The notes beneath the pieces are model-generated. The model did not search any database and was not told the DNA's origin. It worked only from the letters and a program-made list of their open reading frames with translations. From positions 1-35,146 of the forward strand of contig JAUYMU010000067.1 of assembly GCA_030698405.1 (NCBI GenBank): a stretch of DNA of 35,146 nt, read 5' to 3'. Origin of the DNA: Bacteroidota bacterium. GTDB taxonomy: Bacteria > Bacteroidota > Bacteroidia > Bacteroidales > Prolixibacteraceae. Both the position numbers and the translations under genes were made by a program. Within the stretch, counting starts at the first letter, position 1; each line of letters opens with the position of its first letter. Positions 30,998 to 34,046 of the stretch are shown here, piece by piece.

Positions 30998-31507
30998 CTA
31001 CCAATGACAGATTTGCGTAACTTGTTTATTGCTAGGGATTTCAATATTTAGCTCATTTGCCAACCTATTCAATGTTTTCATTTTATTTGCCAGTAATGTT
31101 TCTTCATAATGTATGATGCCTTTTTCTGCATAATCGAGTCCTTTGACCATCACTCGCCAATAAAGAACGGCTACTTTTCGGGCCATCGCTTTTATAGCAA
31201 TACTAGGACCTTTACGTCCCCTTAACCTTCTGCCGAACGATCCGATTGCAATGCCCTTGCTGTTTATTAGTCCCTGTGCAATGGTACGGAAGATTTGTCC
31301 TGCTTTTGGTCGTCCTTTCTTTTTTGCATTTCTGCGCATTTTGCCGGAGTTATTTTGTCCGGGAGCGAGACCAAGCCAACTGGTGAAATGTTTTTCTGTT
31401 GGCCACTTTGTCAAATCAAATCCTGTCTCTCCCAATAGTTGCATCCAGGTATAATCTGTGATTCCTGAGATCACTGTTGCATCTTTTCCATCAAAAATAT
31501 TGATCAA
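30998..31507 (-). CDS. IS110 transposase, C-terminal part (Transposase_20)
   Basis: This frame holds the second half of the IS110 transposase: GITDYTWMQLLGETGFDLTKW, then SWLGLAPGQNNSGKMRRNAKKKGRP. S54 of this fragment in the NNSGK motif corresponds to the serine nucleophile of the family. The nominal start is a TTG, but the same frame stays open upstream through HHKPAVEKLAPN to the A10 run near 31558-31567. It is therefore not a separate gene but the end of the transposase, shifted by one base from the N-terminal half. It needs a -1 shift or one extra A to be joined. Confidence 0.85.
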   Translation of the reverse strand: MINIFDGKDATVISGITDYTWMQLLGETGFDLTKWPTEKHFTSWLGLAPGQNNSGKMRRNAKKKGRPKAGQIFRTIAQGLINSKGIAIGSFGRRLRGRKGPSIAIKAMARKVAVLYWRVMVKGLDYAEKGIIHYEETLLANKMKTLNRLANELNIEIPSNKQVTQICHW

Positions 31508-32319
31508 GTTAGGAGCCAGTTTTTCAACAGCTGGTTTATGATGACGGATCGCTTTTCTTTTTTTTTTACATCTTGTCCTTTGCCTGATTGCCCAATTCGG
31601 TTCATGACTGCGTTGATCCTTTTGTCACACTCTTCATTCTGACGGAGATAAAACTTGTATCCATCGTATGCCTGTTTTAAAGCAAAAAGTCCAGCTTCGG
31701 TGTACTTTCCTTCCAAAGCTTTTATGATGAGTTCCTTTTTGTTTTTCAAGATACTCTGATGGCACAGGCTTACCAGAATGTACTTGTCTCTTTCTCCATT
31801 CAGGATTGCCTCGATAATAGCTATGCCACTTGCTCCGTGTATTTGGCTCAAAACCTCTTTCAGCCTGATATTCATCAACGTCAGTGCCTTTTGCATGTGG
31901 TTGATGTGCATGGCAGAACTGTTGATATGATCCTCCCTGAGACGCAGGTAACTCCTTAGTTCTTTAATATCGGTATCGACTACCAGACACCTGCCAAGCA
32001 ATCCATAACTGTGGAGTTCCTGTATCCATTGACAGTCTTTGACATCGGTTTTACGTCCAGGGACTTGTTTGGTCTGACGTCCATCAACAAGCCAAACATC
32101 GATCCCTGCTTCTTCCAATATTTCATACAAGATAACCCAGTAAACACCAGTAGCTTCCATGGCTACTGTTTCCACCTTATGCTTTAACAGGTAATCACGA
32201 AGAAGCATAAAGTCTTCTGTAAAAGTAAAGTGGCTTACAACAGGTTGTCCTTCAATAGCAGTAAACACTTTTTTTGCACCGATATCTATACCGGCAACGT
32301 TAGTCCTGATCTTTTCCAT
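31504..32319 (-). CDS. IS110 transposase, N-terminal part (DEDD domain)
   Basis: 271 residues with the RuvC-like DEDD domain of IS110 recombinases: D12 in GIDIGAKK, E55 in AMEATGVYW, D92 and D95 in GRKTDVKDCQWI. The domain cuts DNA together with the C-terminal serine under guidance of a bridge RNA. The frame runs through K-K-K at an A10 run (plus-strand T10 at 31558-31567) and ends 17 codons later in a non-homologous tail (INQLLKNWLLT). Without a frameshift the product lacks the serine domain and should be inactive. The gene lies just below the proposed bridge RNA segment. Confidence 0.87.
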   Translation of the reverse strand: MEKIRTNVAGIDIGAKKVFTAIEGQPVVSHFTFTEDFMLLRDYLLKHKVETVAMEATGVYWVILYEILEEAGIDVWLVDGRQTKQVPGRKTDVKDCQWIQELHSYGLLGRCLVVDTDIKELRSYLRLREDHINSSAMHINHMQKALTLMNIRLKEVLSQIHGASGIAIIEAILNGERDKYILVSLCHQSILKNKKELIIKALEGKYTEAGLFALKQAYDGYKFYLRQNEECDKRINAVMNRIGQSGKGQDVKKKEKRSVIINQLLKNWLLT

Positions 32320-32340
32320 AAATAAAACATTTATAAGTTA

Positions 32341-32520
32341 AAGATCTACACCCAAAAGGGCATTGTAAACTATACGTTGGCATGCTACCATACGGACATT
32401 CCTGTAAAGGAAGTACCACACATTGTGCCTCAATCTTTTGGAACCATACTCGCAAACAGGTTAAAAAACACTATACTAAGAACGGTCAAACTGTGCAGAT
32501 CATATCTGCTAAGGTAGCAA
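32341..32520 (-). ncRNA. Candidate IS110 bridge RNA
   Basis: Read on the minus strand, this segment has a 5' hairpin GCAGAT-ATG-ATCTGC (32509-32495). A loop follows that is closed by CCTGT / ACAGG (32460-32456 with 32405-32401), then a second loop region (32400-32341). The first loop contains TTGCGAGT (32455-32448), complementary to ACTCGCAA across the core and right half of the target, and GTGGTACT (32419-32412), 6 of 8 like the left half. The second contains TGGTAG (32390-32385), complementary to the CTACCA end of the element, and GGGTGTAGATCT (32353-32342), close to the other end GGGTGGAGACT. This is the guide order expected of target and donor loops. The exact ends and fold are not determined. 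Confidence 0.6.
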
Positions 32521-32570
32521 ATCCTCTCCCTGTCATATTCACATTGTGCCCAAAAAATTGGGTGGAGACT

Positions 32571-32706
32571 CGCAATGACGATAAGACGAGCGTCATTGCG
32601 AAAGGAGTGAAGCAATCTGATGATGAATCGGATTTATGTGTTTCTTGCAATGACGAGTGACTGAGTGGATTGTCACGGTTTTCGTTCCTCAACCTCGCAA
32701 TGCCGT
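32571..32706. repeat. Dispersed repeat cluster, right part
   Basis: Starting at the IS junction: CGCAATGACGATAAGACGAG, then a unit opening CGTCATTGCGAAAGGAGTG and closing TTGCAATGACG, then GTGGATTGTCACGGTTTTCG to CTCGCAATGCCG. The order of units matches the cluster at 33897-34046 (for example ATCTGATGATGAATCG against ATCTGACGATGAATCG). Confidence 0.75.
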
Positions 32707-33896: not shown

Positions 33897-34046
33897 TCCT
33901 CGCAATATCGCTAAGACCAGCGTCATTGCGACCACGAGGAGCGTGGTGGGTAGCTATCTGACGATGAATCGATTCCAGTTTTCTTTCACAATGACGGGTG
34001 ATTGGAATGGATTGCTTCGTCCTCCTTCGTCGGACTCGCAATAACG
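33897..34046. repeat. Dispersed CGTCATTGCGA repeat cluster, uninterrupted copy
   Basis: It starts TCCTCGCAATATCGCTAAG, then a unit from CGTCATTGCGACCACGAG to CACAATGACG, and a unit from TGATTGGAATGGATTGC to CGGACTCGCAATAACG. Unit ends are inverted copies (CGTCATTGCGA against CGCAATAACG). The last unit contains the same CT site at 34035-34036 that the IS110 element occupies at 30998. The cluster overlaps the 3' end of the WecG-type gene. Confidence 0.75.

Follow-up and report, generated by a model that had tools for sequence, protein, structure and literature searches.

The element and its target

The window, 35,146 nucleotides from a Prolixibacteraceae genome (Bacteroidota), contains an IS110-family insertion sequence on its minus strand (Table 1). 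The element carries the transposase domains of that family, DEDD_Tnp_IS110 and Transposase_20. Upstream of them, the noncoding left end probably encodes a bridge RNA of ~160 nt with a target guide, a donor guide and a third guide that reads the left end, the right target half seemingly being left unread; this reading draws on comparison of related sequences. The original prediction had placed here a Bacteroidota bridge-type RNA aimed at a repeat, with four guides. The RNA, which a covariance model (R1) matches, is supported, and of the guides, one for the target and one for the donor stand where first placed; half of the guide assignment does not hold.

Once joined, the flanks of the element read ATTGCGAG and TCCGACGAAGGAGGACGTGGCAATC on the two sides of the junction. 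A near-copy of the target repeat lies uninterrupted at 34042-34010 and thereby supports both element ends. Draconibacterium orientale carries six copies with matching ends, inserted at variants of one repeat. Their left target halves are ATTGCGAG (2), ATCGCGAG, ATTCCGAG (2) and ATTTCGAG; their right halves are of five kinds, namely CGTAGCG (x2), CATAGCG, two differing GGAGGA types and GAGTGAAAC. The window's own assembly holds one full-length DNA match to the element, plus short repeat matches. Subterminal inverted repeats span 7 bp in the window; in 42 of 46 elements they measure 6-11 bp.

Table 1. Features of the element and its surroundings (positions in the window)
Feature	Positions	Strand	Remarks
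IS110-family element	30998..32568	-	1571 bp, core counted once; basis: joined flanks, target near-copy, six Draconibacterium copies
Right-end core dinucleotide AG	30998..30999	-	
Transposase C-terminal frame, Transposase_20	30998..31507	-	PF02371, E 6.9e-11
Subterminal inverted repeat CTGTCAT, right copy	31004..31010	-	
Transposase N-terminal frame, DEDD_Tnp_IS110	31504..32319	-	PF01548, E 6.7e-18
A10 run interrupting transposase frame	31558..31567	-	Likewise in several close relatives
Bridge-like RNA, extent as modelled	32342..32502	-	R1, 148 bits; window sequence belongs to the model's own set
P2 3' and P1 3' strands	32345..32358	-	
Left donor guide TATGGTAG	32385..32392	-	TGGTAG exact; 3' side of donor loop
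P3 hairpin	32394..32417	-	98.3% of cells paired; two-sided change in 6/9 pairs
Candidate third guide GGCACAATGTG	32419..32429	-	5' side of donor loop
P2 5' strand	32435..32441	-	Pairs with 32352-32358; two-sided change in 7/7 pairs
Target stem-loop	32442..32487	-	P4 32483-32487/32442-32446; 5' loop side 32474-32482
Left target guide TTGCGAGT	32448..32455	-	
P5 hairpin of target stem-loop	32468-32473/32457-32461	-	Guide on 3' loop side
P1 5' strand	32493..32499	-	Pairs with 32345-32351; two-sided change in 7/7 pairs; 84.6% of cells paired
Promoter-like box TACCTTAG	32509..32516	-	TAnnTTnG, at most 40 nt upstream of RNA
Subterminal inverted repeat ATGACAG, left copy	32530..32536	-	
Left-end copy of third guide, GGCACAATGTG	32540..32550	-	19-29 bp from core
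Left-end DNA inverted repeat CCCAA..TTGGG	32549..32562	-	Last 2 nt overlap third-guide copy
Left-end core dinucleotide AG (CT on +)	32569..32570	-	
Left target half, GTCATTGCG ahead of core	32571..32579	-	
Target repeat near-copy, uninterrupted	34010..34042	-	

A probable structured RNA in the left end

Relatives were drawn from one genome scan (best 80 of 430), and an alignment of their upstream regions (35 rows) contains a strongly conserved segment. RNAalifold with a pair count (26 sequences) yields five helices: P1 joining the ends, P4 and P5 in a target stem-loop, and P2 and P3 in a donor stem-loop. In this fold, 94.5% of 852 cells are paired and 134 cells show two-sided change, compared with 38 after shuffling. 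Sliding the structure by one column lowers pairing to 46.0% and 48.7%, a control that leans towards the fold because the structure was chosen from the same alignment. Two-sided change occurs in 22 pairs, 20 of which belong to P1, P2 and P3. Covariation supports the donor stem-loop strongly and the target stem-loop by few varying pairs. Two positions that are always G-U (columns 20-58 and 31-47) fit the minus strand, not its complement.

R1 was run on 96 sources and matches 90 of them, with 93 matches at E <= 0.5, three of which are weaker than 0.01; L087, L094, L128, L130, L139 and L146 have no match. The set was formed by leaving out duplicates and partial, repeated, distant or unneeded loci (L001-L032, L048, L113, L118-L125, L131, L132, L134-L137, L142-L144 and L147-L182). 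Matching records include some titled Verrucomicrobia, Chlorobiaceae and Proteobacteria. Within the window's genome, where 150 of 1482 first-look candidates were scored, R1 has a single match at E <= 0.001. No Rfam family reaches its gathering score in the window or in three further loci, one of them a copy of IS621, and below that score there is no credible weaker family for the RNA. In group A, 19 of 33 loci have the motif TAnnTTnG among the 40 nt that precede the RNA, compared with 1.9 expected from simple shuffles; the window's box, TACCTTAG, is presumably of the Bacteroidota promoter type TAnnTTTG.

Target and donor guides

The target guide TTGCGAGT lies where it was originally placed. The refuting condition set for the original prediction did not come true, as related copies at other targets do not keep this string: guide and target change together, for instance to TTGGCAG in L040, GTCAGAG in L073 and GTAGGAG in L108. 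The target loop co-varies with the target, in the window's group with the left half only, and the donor loop co-varies with the donor. The donor string TGGTAG was likewise correctly located, within the left donor guide TATGGTAG.

The remaining assignments are not supported. Six of the eight nucleotides of the proposed right-target guide GTGGTACT sit in the P3 hairpin, and no right-target guide is detectable in the window's group (Z -0.7, n=28); one is detectable in group B. The proposed right-donor guide GGGTGTAGA (32353-32345) falls inside the P2 3' and P1 3' helix strands, and the second guide of the donor loop is instead the stretch GGCACAATGTG, which matches another place. Right guides of the IS621 type, for target or donor, that pair with the top strand beside the core are not detected in the window element. 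Closure of the target loop by CCTGT/ACAGG finds no support. By eye, one member of the window's group, L049, has a long right-target match on the 5' side of its target loop, where the RNA string ACCGGTCG lines up with the complement of the target's right half, despite the null statistic for the group.

Rows for the guide scan were reduced from 93 to 70 by dropping RNAs of >88% identity and rows with <60 nt upstream, and from 70 to 60 by dropping loci that lacked a clear stop or had too little DNA downstream. The target-guide scan retained visibly wrong placements at early contig ends, for example in L052, L054 and L042. Later guide tests used rows with a donor match >= 6 (58), or with a target match >= 6 and enough left end (56), and are for this reason conditional on a good neighbouring guide. 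Tests of subterminal repeats and sister pairs used 46 elements.

A proposed third guide matching the left end

Comparison among relatives shows the fold and three sequence matches with their co-variation, and suggests that the RNA also reads a stretch within the left end, a feature absent from the known bridge RNA model. The third guide, in the donor loop, would be the new part and has strong comparative support. Between the core and the left-end match, the longest perfect stem averages 4.6, compared with 3.35 in shuffled sequences (56 elements), and the stem of the inverted repeat reaches 5 or more in 29 of the 56.

Genomes of the same genus and family also contain stand-alone units of ~50 bp composed of a left target half, the inverted repeat, the third-guide copy and the subterminal repeat. 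Twelve such places lie within contigs (L007, L008, L025, L026, L030, L186, L188, L190, L193, L194, L195 and L201), with no RNA or transposase directly after them, and three more lie at contig ends. Among 24 loci scanned with the RNA model, an RNA is found only in two overlapping records of one place. The units could be small elements mobilised in trans, or else remnants.

Proposed mechanism and alternatives

In the proposed mechanism, the RNA would fold as a three-way junction in which P1 joins the ends, P4, a loop and P5 form the target stem-loop, and P2, a loop and P3 form the donor stem-loop. Through TTGCGAG(T), the target loop would read the left half of a repeat of the GTCATTNNGAG type, and the donor loop would read the right end of the element through TATGGTAG. 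The opposite side of the donor loop would read 10-11 nt of the left end that lie ~20 bp inward from the core, past an inverted repeat that might fold out of the DNA. The right target half seems to be read by no guide in the window's group.

A broader proposal has about an even chance of being right: that the element represents a class with two donor-loop guides that each pair with the bottom strand, one beside the core and the other at a distance of ~20 bp, on the far side of a DNA hairpin that folds out. The RNA would then recognise a DNA end in folded form. Together with its target guide, such an RNA could recognise the left junction after integration too, and could therefore drive excision as well as insertion. 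A distal donor guide would explain left-end recognition where no core-adjacent guide is seen, would constitute a third programmable element, and would imply that donor sites for such enzymes need ~40 bp of left end. Bridge recombinases are under development as programmable DNA inserters; this family offers a natural series of retargeted relatives, and one of its groups seems to manage with a single target guide.

Several observations weigh against a left-end guide, or against the system as a whole. The third-guide match is not on the strand expected from the right donor guide of IS621. Fewer than 7 of 9 positions match in 23 of 56 elements; of these 23, five look matchless (L112, L091, L095 (at +8 to +11), L127, L129 (4-5/9)), and others are placed far off, at +30 to +41. 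The inverted-repeat stem is shorter than 5 in 27 of 56. Concordant double changes in sister pairs number 33 of 67, a share within the range of the mispaired controls (mean 0.34, max 0.53); the absolute count, 33, is higher than in any control (at most 25). The helices on either side of the target loop, P4 and P5, show little variation, with two-sided change in one of five pairs each, and the transposase of the window copy is split at the A10 run rather than forming one open frame.

The position of the left-end copy, shortly before the probable promoter and 24-34 bp upstream of the promoter-like box, makes a regulatory role possible. The RNA might pair with the DNA that immediately precedes its promoter, or transcription might be affected by the left-end copy, with no part in donor recognition. 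This is unlikely, given that the third guide has a fixed place in the RNA opposite the donor guide within the donor loop, that its left-end copy is nearly fixed relative to the core and the subterminal repeat, and that the copy is kept in stand-alone units that have no RNA gene. An ordinary IS621-like bridge RNA with the four guides first drawn is somewhat less probable still. It accounts for the transposase domains and for an RNA in the left end, as the consulted text describes for the IS110 group (PMC11208160), and two of its four strings are right, but the fold and the guide tests speak against the other two.

The left-end copy and the RNA stretch form a direct repeat on the same strand, and might be relics of one duplication, alike by inheritance rather than by pairing. 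The sister-pair count, not clearly apart from its controls, agrees with this. Such an origin is nevertheless very improbable: both sides differ together among relatives (GGCACAATGTG, GGCATAATGAG, GGCAAAAAGA, TGAAAGTG), their flanks are unlike each other, and swaps came out 110 better and 2 worse. That the transposase or another protein reads one motif in both RNA and DNA is hardly credible, as the stretch has no fixed sequence across 56 elements. Recognition of the left end by the donor loop of the RNA remains the preferred reading.

Relation to known bridge RNAs and seekRNAs

The IS621 RNA is taken to begin ~14 nt after its core, and so has no room for a left-end unit of this kind. R1 has no match on IS621. 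The IS621 recombinase is alike in its DEDD/Transposase_20 architecture (PDB 8wt6 is found with a profile at E 1.3e-13). The window element has the core AG, not CT, on that strand; it also differs in lacking a detected right-target guide in its group and in having, in the donor loop of its family, a match on the same strand to a left-end stretch at a distance of ~20 bp. Its subterminal repeats are longer (42 of 46 elements have 6-11 bp, compared with 2-3 in IS621), as is its transposase (~430-460 aa in most open relatives, compared with 326). The IS621 RNA (PMC11208160; PMC11208158) is alike in its gene at the left end, in guides that include the core, and in a pair of stem-loops with internal loops, of which one serves the target and the other the donor. 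Part of the fold of the window's family may already be drawn among six diverse bridge RNAs (Durrant Fig. 6d). In two Escherichia coli IS621 copies, L184 and L185, a second, partial left end is joined to the interior of the RNA gene; in L185 the join falls precisely at the core of the left target guide. These look like self-targeting.

The seekRNAs of IS1111 elements, in the available parts of their description (PMC11187229), are alike in having a top-strand match 5' of the bottom-strand match, as seen here in group B with its detectable right-target guide, and in subterminal inverted repeats. Their RNA gene lies downstream of the transposase, whereas here it lies upstream, as in the IS110 type. 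The ISEc21 seekRNA, of IS110 type, likewise has an upstream gene and shows natural retargeting between relatives (ISMch6); its guide order is reversed relative to the window's family, and the same parts describe no left-end match. A mini-element of ISEc21 used a left end of 29 bp (PMC11187229). An upstream noncoding RNA in the left end agrees with the IS110 group, and a downstream RNA in the right end, as in IS1111, is absent; the 7-bp repeats (ATGACAG/CTGTCAT) fall within the 7-17 bp of the IS1111 group and exceed the 2-3 bp given for the IS110 group in the text seen (PMC11208160), so the group within the family is left open. A left-end guide is named in none of the titles and abstract openings listed from open PubMed Central text, which covers no preprints and few subscription papers, one of the listings being limited to 30 of 65.

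Transposase and tandem copies

NF033542 scores 129 and 62 bits on the two halves of the window transposase, each below the cut-off of 140 set for the whole protein; the open-frame relative L040 scores 207 bits. D12, E55, D92, D95 and S325, invariant in 20 relatives, are present in the window frames; they are presumably the catalytic DEDD acidic residues and the conserved serine. An A9 run interrupts the frame in L033, L034, L041, L042 and five of the six Draconibacterium copies, the sixth of which (L043) has A8; the frame reads through in L040 and L044. A break at this same A9-A10 run is common to the window, L033, L034, L035-L039, L041 and L042, from at least four genera, and the C-terminal half is stop-free in eight of nine matches checked. 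From these sequences, the interruption resembles programmed slippage or frameshifting rather than decay. At 30998-31000, the TAG that stops the second transposase frame coincides with the last three letters of the donor sequence TGGTAG and includes the core.

Elements of this family also occur in tandem. In L046 (2807-4547), the second element begins at the right end of the first, and L093 and L140 each contain two RNAs ~1.6 kb apart.
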